Made by a program: the position numbers and the translations under genes. A model generated the notes under the pieces. The model saw only the letters and a program-made list of their open reading frames with translations. It ran no database searches and was not told the DNA's origin. Below are positions 2,666 through 55,700 of a stretch of DNA of 64,000 nt, piece by piece (positions within the stretch are counted from its first letter, which is position 1; every line of letters starts with the position of its first letter). Source of the DNA: Bacteroidota bacterium (GTDB lineage Bacteria; Bacteroidota; Bacteroidia; NS11-12g; UBA9320); contig WGNA01000011.1 in assembly GCA_016124755.1 (NCBI GenBank), positions 310,688 to 374,687 on the forward strand, read 5' to 3'.

Positions 2666-3235
2666 ATGCCTTACAATCCTCAACTGCACCAGCGCAAATC
2701 CATCCGGCTAAAAGGATATGATTACGCACAGGCGGGATTGTATTTCATTACCATTTGCACACAAAATCGCGCCTGCTTATTTGGCGAAATCATAAATGGT
2801 GAAATGCGCTTGACCACATACGGAGAAATTGCCTTAGCAGAATGGAAAAAAACAGAAGAGATAAGAGAAAATTGCTGTATTCATGAATCGATCATAATGC
2901 CCGATCATATCCATGGCATTATAGAAATTACGCATAAAAGAGGAGAAGAGCAAGAAATTGGAAAATTTCAATCACCATCTCAAACCATTGGCGCCATTAT
3001 CAGAGGATTTAAAATAGCATCGATAAAAAAGATCAAGGAATTAATTCAAAAAGAAGAAAAAAGTAAGGGCGAATTGCAATTCGCCCTTACGGAATTGATA
3101 AAATCCTTAGATTTTAAAATCTGGCAGCGCAATTATTACGAACATATAATCAGAGATGAACAATCCCTTCAACGCATTAGGCAATACATCATTAACAATC
3201 CACAAAACTGGAATGGCGATCAATTGAAAATATAA
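2666..3235 (+). CDS. REP-associated tyrosine transposase (RAYT), Y1/HUH family
   Basis: A 189-residue single-domain HUH endonuclease of the IS200/RAYT group. The metal-binding pair is the H-I-H at residues 81-83 in 'MPDHIHGII', and the likely catalytic tyrosine is Tyr157/158 in '[16 protein letters not shown]'. The start lacks any IS end, and no left/right subterminal hairpins of an IS200 element flank the gene. The gene lies 5 nt after hsdS, and its stop (3233-3235) lies 2 nt before the hsdR ATG, so it is embedded in the operon rather than disrupting it. RAYTs are thought to be domesticated transposases that mobilise REP palindromes. A 28-bp palindrome of that kind sits inside this gene at codons 133-142. 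Confidence 0.9.
3063..3090. repeat. 28-bp perfect palindrome (REP-like) inside the RAYT gene
   Basis: The segment is perfectly self-complementary, starting GTAAGGGCGAATTG and ending CAATTCGCCCTTAC. It adds residues 133-142 of the RAYT protein in frame, in the variable stretch between the HUH motif and the catalytic tyrosine. Its ends follow the same GTARGGG...CCCYTAC pattern as the core of the 52-bp palindrome at 52254-52305. Confidence 0.9.
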
Positions 3236-50634: not shown

Positions 50635-52008
50635 TCAGTCCATCAGGTTGTCAACCGAATCGTTACCGGATTTTTTGTTCTCCGGTTCCGGAGTCGGTTC
50701 GCCGCCGTCGCTTTCGTAATTAAAGGAGAAGGTTTCGCTCACATCGATTCCGAATTTACGGCTGTGCTCTTCCATAATTTTAGCGTCCTGCTCTTTGTAT
50801 TTTGCGGTAGCTTCGGCCATGGCAACGAGAACTTTGTGAAGCTCGGCCATTCGCTCCGGTTGTTTTTTGATGCGTTGAATTCGGTCTTTTTCTGAACCCA
50901 CAAACACCTTGGCAGCGATCTCGGTAATTTTCTGATCGGTCTTCACACCGGCTTCTTCATAAATGGAAGCCGCTTCCTGAGCCGTTGCGGATTGAATCAA
51001 TTGCAAACCGGATTCATAAGTGGTTACCCTTTCTTCGGTGTCGCTTCGAAGCTGACCGATAAGTTGTTTGAGGTTGTTTTTGGTAGTGGTTTGCGCTTCG
51101 AGGTGAATTACAATCTGATCCACAAAACGCTCTTTTGATTGGAATATACCGAGGGCCACGTTGTATTTGCCCTTGAGTTCGGCGCGCTGTTCACGGAGGT
51201 CGGCGATCTTTTTTTGTTGAGCGGTGTATTCCGGACTGTTGTTCGGCAATTCGATGAGTTCGTTTTCGGAAGTTTTGAGTCGCGCTTCGAGTTCGTCGAG
51301 TTCCTTTTTGCGCTCTTCCATTATTCGGGCGGCTTTCTCTTTGGTTTCGAAAGCGAGTTCCTTCCGGTTTTTGAGAGCATCGATCTGCACCTCCACTTCG
51401 AGAATCATGTTCTCAACGATGGCCACCATTCCCTGAACCTGAGAAATAATCCGGTTGAGAGATTCCCCGATATCGGCATTTTTCAGCCTGTCGCGGTAAC
51501 GTCGGTTTGCTTCGGCTTCGGCAGCTTTAAGCGCTTCCACTTTCGCTTCGAGTTCCGCTTTGGTTGAACGCACTTTCCGGTTTTTATATCCAAAGAGGAT
51601 GTTCCAAGCGTTCGACATTTTGGTTGCGTCTTCGGCTTCTACTTCGGCTCTCTGACGCGCTTTGGTTGCATCCTGAACGAGTTTGGTTTCAGCGTCGTTC
51701 AGCTCCTGAAGTTTGGAAAACTCACCTCCGCAACTGTCGAGCATAGCTCTGAGGTGGAGCATAAGTTCCTGAAGATCGGATTCGGTTTGATCTACATCTC
51801 CGTTGAGCGACTCGAAGTTCGAGTTGATTATTCCGGAAATAATGTCTTCAGAAGATTTGTTGCCCTGGGCTGCTTTTTCAATTTCAGCTTCAATTTTGTC
51901 GAGTTTGCTGACTACGCTTTCACCCTTCTTTTTCTCGATCCGGGCTTTGAGTTCGGTAACTTTTTTGTCGTTGCCGAGTTGGTCGAGAAGATCAAAAGAA
52001 TCTGCCAT
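50635..52008 (-). CDS. Operon gene 1: long coiled-coil protein
   Basis: From the ATG at 52008 ('MADSFDLLDQLGNDKK') the protein has 457 residues. A TTG at 52035 could add nine more, but it lies inside the exact -7 box (52033-52040), so it cannot be translated from that promoter. The sequence is almost entirely alpha helical with long heptad stretches ('ELEAKVEALKAAEAEANRRY', 'ERKKELDELEARLKTSENEL', 'KKIADLREQRAELKGK') and an acidic, disordered C-terminus ('EPTPEPENKKSGND'). It resembles PspA/TelA-type coiled-coil proteins in architecture, but I see no diagnostic motif of either. It is the first gene of the operon. Confidence 0.82.
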   Translation of the reverse strand: MADSFDLLDQLGNDKKVTELKARIEKKKGESVVSKLDKIEAEIEKAAQGNKSSEDIISGIINSNFESLNGDVDQTESDLQELMLHLRAMLDSCGGEFSKLQELNDAETKLVQDATKARQRAEVEAEDATKMSNAWNILFGYKNRKVRSTKAELEAKVEALKAAEAEANRRYRDRLKNADIGESLNRIISQVQGMVAIVENMILEVEVQIDALKNRKELAFETKEKAARIMEERKKELDELEARLKTSENELIELPNNSPEYTAQQKKIADLREQRAELKGKYNVALGIFQSKERFVDQIVIHLEAQTTTKNNLKQLIGQLRSDTEERVTTYESGLQLIQSATAQEAASIYEEAGVKTDQKITEIAAKVFVGSEKDRIQRIKKQPERMAELHKVLVAMAEATAKYKEQDAKIMEEHSRKFGIDVSETFSFNYESDGGEPTPEPENKKSGNDSVDNLMD

Positions 52009-52032
52009 CGTTTTTACGGTTGTTGTTTGTGC

Positions 52033-52040
52033 CAAAAGTA
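52033..52040 (-). promoter_or_regulatory. Bacteroidota -7 box of the six-gene operon
   Basis: TACTTTTG on the minus strand, exact TAnnTTTG, 24 nt before the ATG at 52008. No clear TTG -33 box. It decides the start of gene 1. Confidence 0.55.
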
Positions 52041-52253
52041 AGGATTTCAGGTTTTTATACTACTGCTTCGCTGATTAACATAACCGAATGAATCGATTTG
52101 ATTCGTCAATAGGGAATTCAATCTGGACAGGGAAGTAGTGTGTCTGAAAATCTAACTTATAATACCTATGATACGGAATGCAGAATGGAAAGTTACAGGG
52201 AGTTTTAGAATGTATTGGTTGGGTTATTATGTATTAGGGTAATTTTTGTAGGT

Positions 52254-52305
52254 GTAAATGGTATAGTAGGGGTAAGGCATGCCTTACCCCTACTATACCA
52301 TTTAC
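52254..52305. repeat. 52-bp perfect palindrome
   Basis: All 26 base pairs match around the centre CATG. The core reads GTAGGGGTAAGG then CATG then CCTTACCCCTAC. It lies 25 nt after the stop of the DoxX-like gene (minus strand) and 214 nt upstream of the coiled-coil operon's -7 box. No T run follows on either strand, so a REP-type repeat is more likely than a terminator. Nothing else is visible in 52041-52329. Confidence 0.95.
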
Positions 52306-52329: not shown

Positions 52330-52752
52330 CTATTTTTTCAAAAACCAATTATCCAATTCCCAAAATTTATCTTTCATCAGACTTAAAGCAAATGCAGAGG
52401 CCGATGCGGCATATACAGAATAATCGAAAGCGCCTTTTATTCCGGTGGAAAATGTCATGGACAAGGCAAAAAGTAACAGCAGAATTCCACTGAGTTTTGC
52501 AAATAGTTCCGTTTTAAATCCGGCCAGAAGTGCAATTGCAAAAGTGATTTCTGCGGCAGTAGCAATAATTGCCACAACTGGAATAAACGGTTTTGGAAAC
52601 CACGGATTGATTAATTCGGTGTAGGCTAAAAAATTATCCCAATTCCCCCAAACCGAAATATCTTTATTCCAAAGCCCGAAACGGTCAGCAACGGCGGAGA
52701 GAAATCCGCATGAAATGGTAAGTCGGAGAAATAGTTTTATGAATTTGTGCAT
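52330..52752 (-). CDS. DoxX-like membrane protein
   Basis: From the ATG at 52752 the protein has 140 residues and four hydrophobic helices ('FLRLTISCGFLSAVADRF', 'FIPVVAIIATAAEITFAIA', 'LSGILLLLFALSMTF', 'YSVYAASASAFALSLM'), the DoxX/DoxD-like quinone-oxidoreductase-associated fold. The conserved region between helices 1 and 2 ('WGNWDNFLAYTELINPW') fits the family. An upstream extension to 52854 would overlap the repeat protein gene and is rejected. It lies 19 nt after the first long repeat-protein gene and is the last gene of that four-gene run. Function is unknown. Confidence 0.78.
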   Translation of the reverse strand: MHKFIKLFLRLTISCGFLSAVADRFGLWNKDISVWGNWDNFLAYTELINPWFPKPFIPVVAIIATAAEITFAIALLAGFKTELFAKLSGILLLLFALSMTFSTGIKGAFDYSVYAASASAFALSLMKDKFWELDNWFLKK

Positions 52753-52771
52753 TGCATACTGTTTTACGTAT

Positions 52772-55700
52772 TCACCTATTGCTATCATAGTATTCCCATC
52801 CTGTGCCCTTACCATAATTAAAGTAGTAAGAGCCGAATAAAGGAAACAGGTCAATACTGTTCCTCCAAATCACTTCGTCGGAATTATAATTAATCTCACT
52901 AATATGAATTTTCTGTTGCAGGTATCCGGTTTTGTATATGTCAGGTGTTTCCAGATGAGTCATTCCATCTGGTGCACACGAATTTTTAATGGCAGATATA
53001 GCTTCTAAATTTCCCTGATACCAAATTCCAATTTTATGATCATTATGATATTCTCCGGTTTCGGTTAAACGCCCCTGAGCATCGTAATAAAACCAAATTC
53101 CATTCTTTTTGCCATTTAGAATGGTGCCTTCTAATCTACGATTTCCGTTGTCATAATATTCATATACTTTACCGGAATTGTTTGTGATCAATTCTTTTCC
53201 GGTAGCATCCCACATGTTCAGATAAAAGATATTTTCGAAACTCACATCCAGATCCAAATTGCATTGATATTGTTGAAAGGCAGAAAGCACCAATCCTTTT
53301 AATGACATGTTGCCATTGGGATGCCAGGCGGTTATTTTCCCATAATATTTGATAGAGTCTCCATTAACCGGGTTGAAATAAATTCCTGTGGAATAATCTA
53401 TTTCTTTTAAAGGCCCACCGTTTATATCCCAGTGTTTCCAGGTGCCTTTTTTATATCCATTACTAATTGTTCCCTCTGATGCTTTTATTCCGTTTTTGTA
53501 ATAGAGAACATATTTTCCATTCTGTGTGTCATCGAATTGAAGTAAGCCATATTCTTCATTCAAAGAATTAATAAAAATAAGTTCTCTCAGGTCTTGCTTT
53601 AAAACAATGGGAAACTTTTCCGGGTTTTTATGGGTTTCAATAAATTCTTCTTCCAAATAAATGAGATCTGAATTCTCAAAATTAAATCTAGAGTCATAGT
53701 CATCACAAAATCCATTTATAAATATTGAGTGACCTGCGTAAAAAGCACTGTCCGCAATGCTATATACTACTTCGGCTTTTAATACTCCGGTTGAATAAAA
53801 ATAGCGCACGGTATCAGTTAAAAATCCATTTTCAATTCTTGCGGAAACCATGGTGTCGTCCAATCGGTTGCAGTACCAATATCTGCCTTGTGGAATGCCT
53901 TTATTTATAAATACGGATCCCCTTTCTTGGTAGGGAGTTCCGTACCATTTTAACCAGCCATCAACCGTGTCCTTGTGATAGTTTGTTTTGTAATCGATCT
54001 GACCGTTATTGCTAAATTTAATCCATTCTCCATCCAGTTGATTTCGTGTATAAGTGTTCAGGGAATACAGATCACGAAATGTTCCGTGCTTCTGCCCGTT
54101 CACATACGCACAACTGAATGTAAACAAATTGGTAGTACCGTTACGCTTTTGATTTGAATAATGAACATAGTATTTCTCTTTATCAGTAAAAAATACAGAT
54201 TCAACCAATCCGTTTTTTACAAACAGGCGATAATTTACCGGATAGAAAAAAGCGTGATTTTTACAAATTTTCACATTTAATTCTAATGTGCTGGGGTTGG
54301 TTAGTACCATGGTGTAGGTCATTTCTGCTTCACTACTCTCAACAGTACTCAGATTAATGATTCCGGAAAAGGGTTTACCTTTAAGCCATATTTCATAGTT
54401 CAGTGTGTCAGCAGGTTGATATAGAATGCGGGCATGATGTAATACATGATCATATCTATTTGGATAAATCTTGCCCGGTTGGGTTTTTATTAAATACGAA
54501 TAACGAATGCACAATTCATGATTTTGATCCCAATCATTAATTGTGACTTCCAAATTCGAAGTGAGGCTGTCTGAACGTCTATAGTTGAAATCTCTGCAAT
54601 TTATCCCATTGTAAAAATTGTCATAGAAGCCCAATCCTGAGTGAAGTACGTAATTGAATACCTTTCGATGTGAAAGTAAGTGGTTTGATCGATTATATTT
54701 TCTATCGGTAGAATTTGGGGAATTCAGTTGGACTATGCCTATGCTATCGGGATATTTTAAATCCCAATACGACAGTTCCGAAGCATATTCACCGGATTCA
54801 GAAGAAAATAGCAGATTGCGATATAAATACACTTTGGTTTTCTGAATCTCTTTTTTACCCATAAAAGTTTTTCTAAATTCTGTTGAATTCATGGTAAACA
54901 GATGTTTATCTATGTCTGAACCAGCGGAACTGAATTGAATGGTTTGATAAATTGATCCATTCTTTCTGTAAAAATGTATTGGGTTTAGCGTGTCGGAAGT
55001 TCTGAAATCATATTTAAATTCTAACCGACCGTTTTTATGATATCTTGCCATAACAAGATTATCTGACCAGCTACTATTTATTGAAGCATTGGAAGCAAAT
55101 ATTTGACTATACAGGCAATTATTCCCTCCGTTCATTCGATATTGTTTTAAACTTCCGTCGTTGTGCCAGAAATATTCGTAACGATTAGAATCAGCACAAT
55201 CAAGCGCTATCATCACGCCCTTTTTATTAAAACGGATGAATGTTGTGTCTTTTAATTGCGGAGTATGAATCGTTTTTATTTTTCCATTTTTGAAATAACT
55301 GATTTCTTTCATACTTAACTGAACAAATTCGGTTTTCCCGTTCCTACTTGTTACCGTCGCAGTATCATAGAAAGATTCTTTCAAGATTCTTCCTTTCTCA
55401 TCATATTTGACCAAACGTCCGTTAATAAATCCATCAGAAACATCGCATGAATAAAGGATGTGTTGTTTGTAGGTGAGCGTCATTGATCCATTAACAGTAT
55501 CCGAATCGTAATGATAACTTAAGACATATTTGTCGTGGAATATTTTCCAATCACCTGTTTTACGGTCACGATCGTATTGTCCGCTTTGAATTAGTTTCCC
55601 ATCTTGATCATACCATTTAGCCGAACCGTTTTTCAAATTATCCCTGAAAGAAACTATTGCTGCGATGTGTGTTGTGTCCTTTTGTTTAATTCGCTCTTTA

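Follow-up and report, generated by a model that had tools for sequence, protein, structure and literature searches.

The window, by which we mean the whole 64,000-nucleotide stretch of DNA analysed here from the genome labelled G000, contains at positions 52254-52305 a perfect, loop-less inverted repeat with arms of 26 nucleotides. No perfect hairpin in the window has longer arms (scan for arms of at least 10 and loops of at most 8 nucleotides), and the only other loop-less hairpin in the same scan is a 28-bp palindrome at 3063-3090, inside a RAYT-like ORF. A perfect 52-bp palindrome of 26 pairs, beyond chance, had been reported at this place in a first-pass annotation, and the report is borne out; our own calculation (64,000 x ~0.26^26) rules chance out. 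The 52 bp fall into two parts, a shared 28-bp core and a pair of outer 12-bp arms that is private to this locus. The features referred to in the text are as follows.

52254..52305, no strand: the whole perfect palindrome, no loop, 26-bp arms
52266..52293, no strand: 28-bp double-foot REP core GTAGGGGTAAGGCATGCCTTACCCCTAC, common to the other members in the genome with small variations
52254..52265, plus strand: left outer arm GTAAATGGTATA, locus-specific, taken as the presumed native flank
52294..52305, plus strand: right outer arm TATACCATTTAC, the perfect reverse complement of the left arm, taken as its presumed inverted copy
52234..52257, plus strand: degenerate half-core units TTAGGGTAA (52234-52242) and GTAGGTGTAA (52248-52257), seen in the sequence
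2666..3232, plus strand: RAYT (REP-associated tyrosine transposase), 189 aa, motifs DHIH, WQ and YIINNP
3063..3090, no strand: 28-bp palindrome GTAAGGGCGAATTGCAATTCGCCCTTAC inside the RAYT ORF, of the same class, with a different centre and in single copy

The palindrome lies between two minus-strand ORFs, at 50635-52035 on its left and at 52330-52854 on its right, the 3' end of the latter being 24 bp away, in agreement with the first-pass annotation, which had placed it between two minus-strand units without a T run. A T run is absent on either strand and a terminator scan left the palindrome unpicked. In the predicted RNA fold it forms a single long stem (-44.7 kcal/mol for a 121-nt stretch, z -7.9). 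To the left, the flank carries on past the arm as the degenerate half-core units, which have the orientation of the core's left half and run into the left arm.

The core as a double-foot REP

The central 28 bp, at 52266-52293, have the GTAGGGG...CCCCTAC form that had been ascribed to them, in two perfect halves of 14 bp that start 5' with a GT[AG]G foot and close 3' with the reverse complement of it, and are a double-foot REP of the RAYT group 4 / TnpA_REP subclass 2.4 kind. Quentin et al. (2018, PMC6006769) describe the REPs of subclass 2.4, a subclass known from Cyanobacteria, Bacteroidetes and various other phyla, as long hairpins that open 5' with a GT[AG]G foot and end 3' in the complementary C[TC]AC, and a REP in frame within the tnpA_REP gene is also known for this subclass (PMC6006769). 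The element reported here resembles them in having feet at both ends of a long hairpin, and the RAYT gene of the window holds a double-foot palindrome of another sequence; the element differs from them, as they are described in that paper, in its locus-specific arms, which almost every copy possesses and which measure up to 19 bp. It is likewise comparable to the GTAG REP families, short GTAG-tagged palindromes that are mostly intergenic, lie near gene 3' ends, are linked to tyrosine transposases and show complementary stem changes (Di Nocera et al. 2013, PMC3733652). It shares with these the tag, the shortness and the complementary changes; in the account of PMC3733652, however, those families are tagged at one end and mostly have a short loop, whereas the present element is double-footed and loop-less. 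Here and below, our comparisons with published systems extend to those passages of the cited papers that describe them.

The RAYT of the window matches NCBIfam NF047646 at E 2.1e-17 (63.4 bits, under the 80-bit cut-off) and PF01797 at E 0.0029 (under the cut-off), and a PDB search with it gave no match at E 0.01. The subclass 2.4 type is recognised by NH[IFV]H, WQ and YIxNNP with a variable insert between HuH and Y; the protein is assigned to this type by motif rather than by a tree, its DHIH departing from NH at one position, and a RAYT at locus L284 reads NHIH, WQ and YIMNNP. No RAYT found in G000 carries the core of the dispersed family described below (of three such RAYT-like genes, one has another palindrome and two have none), and no GTAGGG was found near three other Y1_Tnp genes of this genome. 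The scan loci listed from elsewhere include ten with a relative of the window's RAYT, and in eight of the ten a core-form palindrome lies inside the RAYT gene; those eight, which are from other genomes and are counted among the matches listed, have a GGCATGCC-centred core, and at L070 and L076 the palindrome lies outside the gene.

The first-pass annotation had linked the 52-bp palindrome to the one inside the RAYT gene. As to kind the link holds, and it was known before: the GTAGGGG...CCCCTAC palindromes are spread through the genome as one family, and they and the RAYT-internal palindrome belong to a single structural class, the double-foot REP. A relation of donor or mobiliser is unsupported, since the RAYT-internal palindrome has another centre and exists in single copy, without dispersed copies of the searched form. 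The RAYT gene, with its palindrome in frame, is flanked by ORFs that by eye resemble type I restriction-modification subunits. At a RAYT gene of the genome G111 (L288:1772-1825) two palindromes abut, GAACGACGACAAATTTGTCGTCGTTC and then a double-foot REP.

A genome-wide palindrome search, which the first-pass annotation had proposed on the understanding that its reading would fall if there were no other palindromes of this form, found 19 occurrences of GTARGGGN14CCCYTAC in the 4.05-Mb genome and none of a reversed control pattern. Eighteen of the 19 are centred on AAGGCATGCCTT or on a slightly altered form of it, the centre of the dispersed family being TAAGGCATGCCTTA, and the remaining one is the RAYT-internal palindrome (GTAAGGGCGAATTGC...), the sole one of its sequence among these places. 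Two variants, at C22 (AAGGGG...CCCCTT) and at C1:162120 (an extra G-C pair), bring the dispersed members found to 20, a count to which more variants may be added, the C1 variant having surfaced in a 400-kb sample (20 stretches of 20 kb). That variant (L184:2094-2161) is a perfect palindrome of 68 bp; its arms hold GTAGGGGTAAAAAT, which is another unit resembling a half-core, as though one element were nested in another. Twenty copies are fewer than is usual for REPs, and they are repeated and largely intergenic: among the 19 copies whose gene context was examined, six are spanned by ORFs of 84-117 aa that are non-genic in appearance, three touch the 5' end of a neighbouring ORF (mechanical calls) and the others lie between ORFs, none of the 19 sitting well inside an ORF longer than 117 aa.

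The distribution of the element is patchy within the order; the core form is present in many phyla. The GCATGC-centred form occurs in one of 38 genomes of the taxonomic family, namely this one, and GTAGGGGN14CCCCTAC in 4 of 108 genomes of the order, this one included; in a scan of species genomes the core form was found in at least 115 stretches, including those of Chloroflexi, Bacteroidales, Cyanobacteria, Deltaproteobacteria and Omnitrophota. The exact core was found in none of the viral contigs, of which nine carry the core form, with arms of more than 1 bp in none. Full-length matches to the core are all but absent from plasmid and phage collections, a query coverage of at least 80% being reached in two of four plasmid records and in one of two phage records.

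Outer arms that differ from locus to locus

Arm extension was counted in bases from the core outward until the first mismatch, so that the arms by this measure adjoin the core without unpaired bases. In the window's own genome the extension is 4-19 bp at 18 of the 20 sites and 2 bp at the other two, and the arm sequences differ between sites, a difference that takes the whole genome to be seen and is for that reason absent from the first-pass annotation. The left and right flanks of the same copy give a mean extension of 10.25 bp, as against 0.60 bp for mismatched pairs, and an extension of at least 4 bp is reached by 18 of 20 own pairs as against 12 of 380 mismatched left/right pairs. Any two of the 18 arms of at least 4 bp share at most four bases beside the foot, and a shared consensus such as marks a conserved target palindrome (as in T. 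roseum and A. variabilis) is absent. Arm lengths are spread over 2-19 bp, without a four-fold drop per base.

The arms end abruptly. In the 15 bases beyond the boundary, complementarity is 0.333 in this genome (19 sites), 0.290 in the Chloroflexi MAG G108 (14 sites) and 0.268 at 118 other sites, which are enriched for arms by the extra copies of the genome G113 counted among them here and in the comparison of lengths; the somewhat higher value in this genome may reflect in part the skewed composition of its flanks. The arm at L167 continues imperfectly beyond its first mismatch. Within the core, positions 8-10 vary between copies, and the two halves agree there in 18 of 20 copies of this genome and in 12 of 12 from G108 (longer flanks being required for this table); asymmetric cores number 4 of 20 in this genome, at one position each, and 10 of 128 elsewhere. 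We came upon no description of locus-specific arms of this kind in the literature searched.

A second dispersed palindrome family, GTCSGTAGCGnnnnCGCTACSGAC, has 27 copies in the sequence examined (for example L177:10567, L170:4597 and L167:6329) and served as a control. Its extensions are 0 in 23 copies, 1 bp in two, and 5 and 9 bp in one copy each. An extension of at least 5 bp is thus found in 17 of 20 members of the GTAGGGG family against 2 of 27 of the control family (Fisher p 5.8e-8), the two being not fully matched, in that the control palindromes have a 4-nt loop and 10-bp stems, and the control copies being those within the sequence examined, much of it drawn from around palindromes. 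A genome-wide tendency of all palindromes to extend is disfavoured by the control family, in which 25 of 27 copies extend by 0-1 bp. At several loci, control-family copies lie some tens of bp from GTAGGGG palindromes, within mosaic intergenic repeats.

The arm effect recurs in unrelated bacteria, yet it is not general. Three other genomes of the order with the form contribute five sites, whose extensions are 10, 7, 3, 2 and 1 bp, the 3- and 2-bp ones having a core mismatch. In the cross-phylum scan, the pattern of which fixed part of the core's centre, 73 of the 118 sites among the matches listed show no extension at all, and arms of at least 4 bp are present at 10 of them (chance expectation ~0.5). 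Two of these ten armed sites, again among the matches listed, belong to G108, where arms of 4-18 bp, mutually different, are found in 13 of 14 copies (there are 15, of which the contig-end copy C730 was dropped) and where 2 of 182 mismatched pairs reach at least 4 bp; in a third genome, G113, seven of nine copies extend by 0, 6, 8, 0, 5, 0 and 16 bp, both genomes having been chosen for a closer look because one or two of their scan sites had arms. In G108 the left arm at L264 contains the stop codon of an NAD(+) diphosphatase gene (...KQTGKW-TAA), and at L270 and L268 ORFs run into the arm and the core. A search of the other 45 of the 46 genomes of the order to which G108 belongs (E 1e-40) gave no ortholog of the gene that enters the arm at L270, and at L264, L268 and L270 the protein matches stop short of the arms.

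Flank composition and the native side

Half-core-like units are found past the arm on the left only at the window, at L158:8080 and at L159:7544, and on the right at L161:2559; by their one-sidedness at the first three of these loci, the left side looks original. Within 200 bp of 19 copies, GTAGGG occurs 10 times in the orientation toward the core, some of these inside arms, against 0 times for CCCTAC. In this genome both flanks have an excess of G on the strand that runs toward the core, out to ~90 bp, the skew of G over C in that direction being 0.54 in the first 15 bp past the arm and 0.05-0.06 beyond 120 bp; over 40 bp, it is 0.09 at the sites of other genomes and 0.08 in G108. In the control family the skew is -0.08. 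The skew and the oriented half-cores hint at repeated rounds, and the G-richness on both sides is left unexplained by a single copying event. Of the 238 flanks at 119 sites in other genomes (L043-L157 and L227-L235), 185 have a pyrimidine, T or C, immediately before the GTAG foot, which is possibly a target-site preference. Decayed cores are seen at L161:982-997 and near position 4160 of L193 (G000:C20 ~149160); they sit at junctions of repeats that are paralogous to the flanks of intact copies, which suggests that older copies exist.

Origin of the arms

The reading that we consider somewhat probable is that the element is a mobile palindrome that gains new arms at every site it enters, one flank being copied by fold-back in the course of insertion or shortly afterwards. 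The moving unit would be the 28-bp core, with the 12-bp outer arms lying outside it. The 3' end of the folded palindrome would serve as a primer, and a few bases of the adjoining target would be copied in inverted form, such that target X, half P, half P' and then the copied X' would stand in the order X-P-P'-X' before the other flank was joined. According to PMC8266576, HUH enzymes leave a free 3'-OH that is usable as a primer. Synthesis would halt after 2-19 bases, so that each copy would receive matching arms of its own, and in most genomes the joining would be immediate, such that arms would not form. A fold-back copy would account in one step for the clues to a native side and for the matched halves of the core.

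The anatomy of the arms is solid; the fold-back priming, the timing with respect to insertion, the involvement of a RAYT and the native status of the left arm at 52254-52265 are all parts of the mechanism that we infer. Local BLAST of all 20 flanks against the examined stretches, together with the paralogues of the L167 flank, yielded no clean empty site: the flanks returned mosaic repeats that break near the palindrome, and at the paralogous site C31:31702 the core is absent, but the alignment breaks at the palindrome and ~150 bp are also missing. It is for this reason that we infer, rather than observe, the coupling of the arms to insertion. As most sites of the same core form in other genomes are without arms, an extra host or transposase factor must be assumed, and the asymmetric cores imply that perfect copying is not always kept.

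A possible, if doubtful, alternative is that the core inserts cleanly and that quasipalindrome template switching follows, later fold-back at replication stalls extending the arms and making them perfect again; a covalent RAYT-DNA complex at the foot could provoke such fold-back. Perfect hairpins can both arise and persist through template switching (PMC8794818), the influence of DNA-protein crosslinks on mutagenesis by such switching has been investigated in E. coli (PMC6357072), and the reverse-complement copies beside a hairpin and the homogenised stems that are described for such mutation (PMC8794818, PMC7202029) are like those seen here. The two control copies that do extend, by 5 and 9 bp, speak for it, and the G-rich flanks, like the half-core units, are suggestive of more than one event. 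As those papers describe it, however, quasipalindrome mutation is spontaneous and befalls hairpins in general, whereas the arms here are tied to one mobile family and are near-universal in two genomes, where copies with unmutated cores are armed too, while most other sites of the same core form have no arms; the control family is mostly armless, though its shorter stems and its loop may make it less prone to the process. That the core was instead inserted at the dyad centre of pre-existing hairpins or palindromes, the arms being the old target hairpins, seems to us very improbable. Some REP families are on record as sitting inside conserved palindromes, in A. variabilis, T. roseum and H. neapolitanus (PMC3733652), but the larger palindromes described there share a consensus, whereas the arms here differ from locus to locus, have no leftover loop bases and have lengths unlike the fall-off of chance hairpins. 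Palindromes outside the family do exist in the ~0.70 Mb (arms of at least 11, loop 0-1), at L158:10639 (14) and L170:11513 (11), as a near-perfect palindrome of 51 bp at L159:10417-10467 (25-bp arms, loop 1) and as the RAYT-internal palindrome; they are nevertheless few against 20 insertions, and the 400-kb sample has no loop-less perfect palindrome with arms of at least 11 outside the family, the 28 non-family hairpins with such arms having longer loops of up to 40 nt.

We regard it as similarly unlikely that the palindrome is a transcribed RNA hairpin, a terminator or 3'-end stabiliser whose stem is kept by selection and whose arms have grown by compensatory change. The predicted stem is very stable and lies 24 bp past a gene's 3' end, and the 19 examined sites all avoid the interior of ORFs above 117 aa; yet the G+C-rich stem lacks the T run of a terminator, the Rfam matches fall under the gathering thresholds and are to eukaryotic miRNA or other unrelated families, and arms that are unrelated between loci and end abruptly are not what selection on a shared RNA would yield. 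An assembly artefact, in the form of inverted chimeras, or chance is barely credible: although the second genome with the effect, G108, is a MAG, the arms are short (2-19 bp), are tied to one 28-bp element in 18 of 20 and 13 of 14 copies, and are mostly absent from the control family of the same assembly. Given the weak tendency of the control family to extend and the unlikelihood of hairpin targets, inverted copying of one flank, tied to the element, remains.

A broader and more tentative proposal, about which we are rather doubtful, is that self-primed fold-back DNA synthesis may be the means by which double-foot REPs both arise and spread. Once a RAYT had joined it to the target, a half-element or a folded single strand would copy itself from its own 3' end, and in some hosts the adjoining target would be copied too, before the second join. 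If true, this would give insertion a new kind of signature, 2-19 bp of target duplicated in inverted form and continuous with the element, and would explain both the matched changes in the core halves and the locus-specific arms. With DNA transposons, a target-derived duplication, the target site duplication, flanks each insertion. The arms would be like it in being a target-derived duplication beside each insertion, and unlike it in their inverted orientation, in running on without a break from the element's palindrome and in their length, which varies from 2 to 19 bp. The proposal bears on the open question of how REPs spread, where a site-specific inverted copy of the target would be a physical trace of the reaction, and would offer bacterial genomes a route to acquire long perfect hairpins in a single step. 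Hairpins of this sort can influence replication, RNA ends and the stability of the genome.
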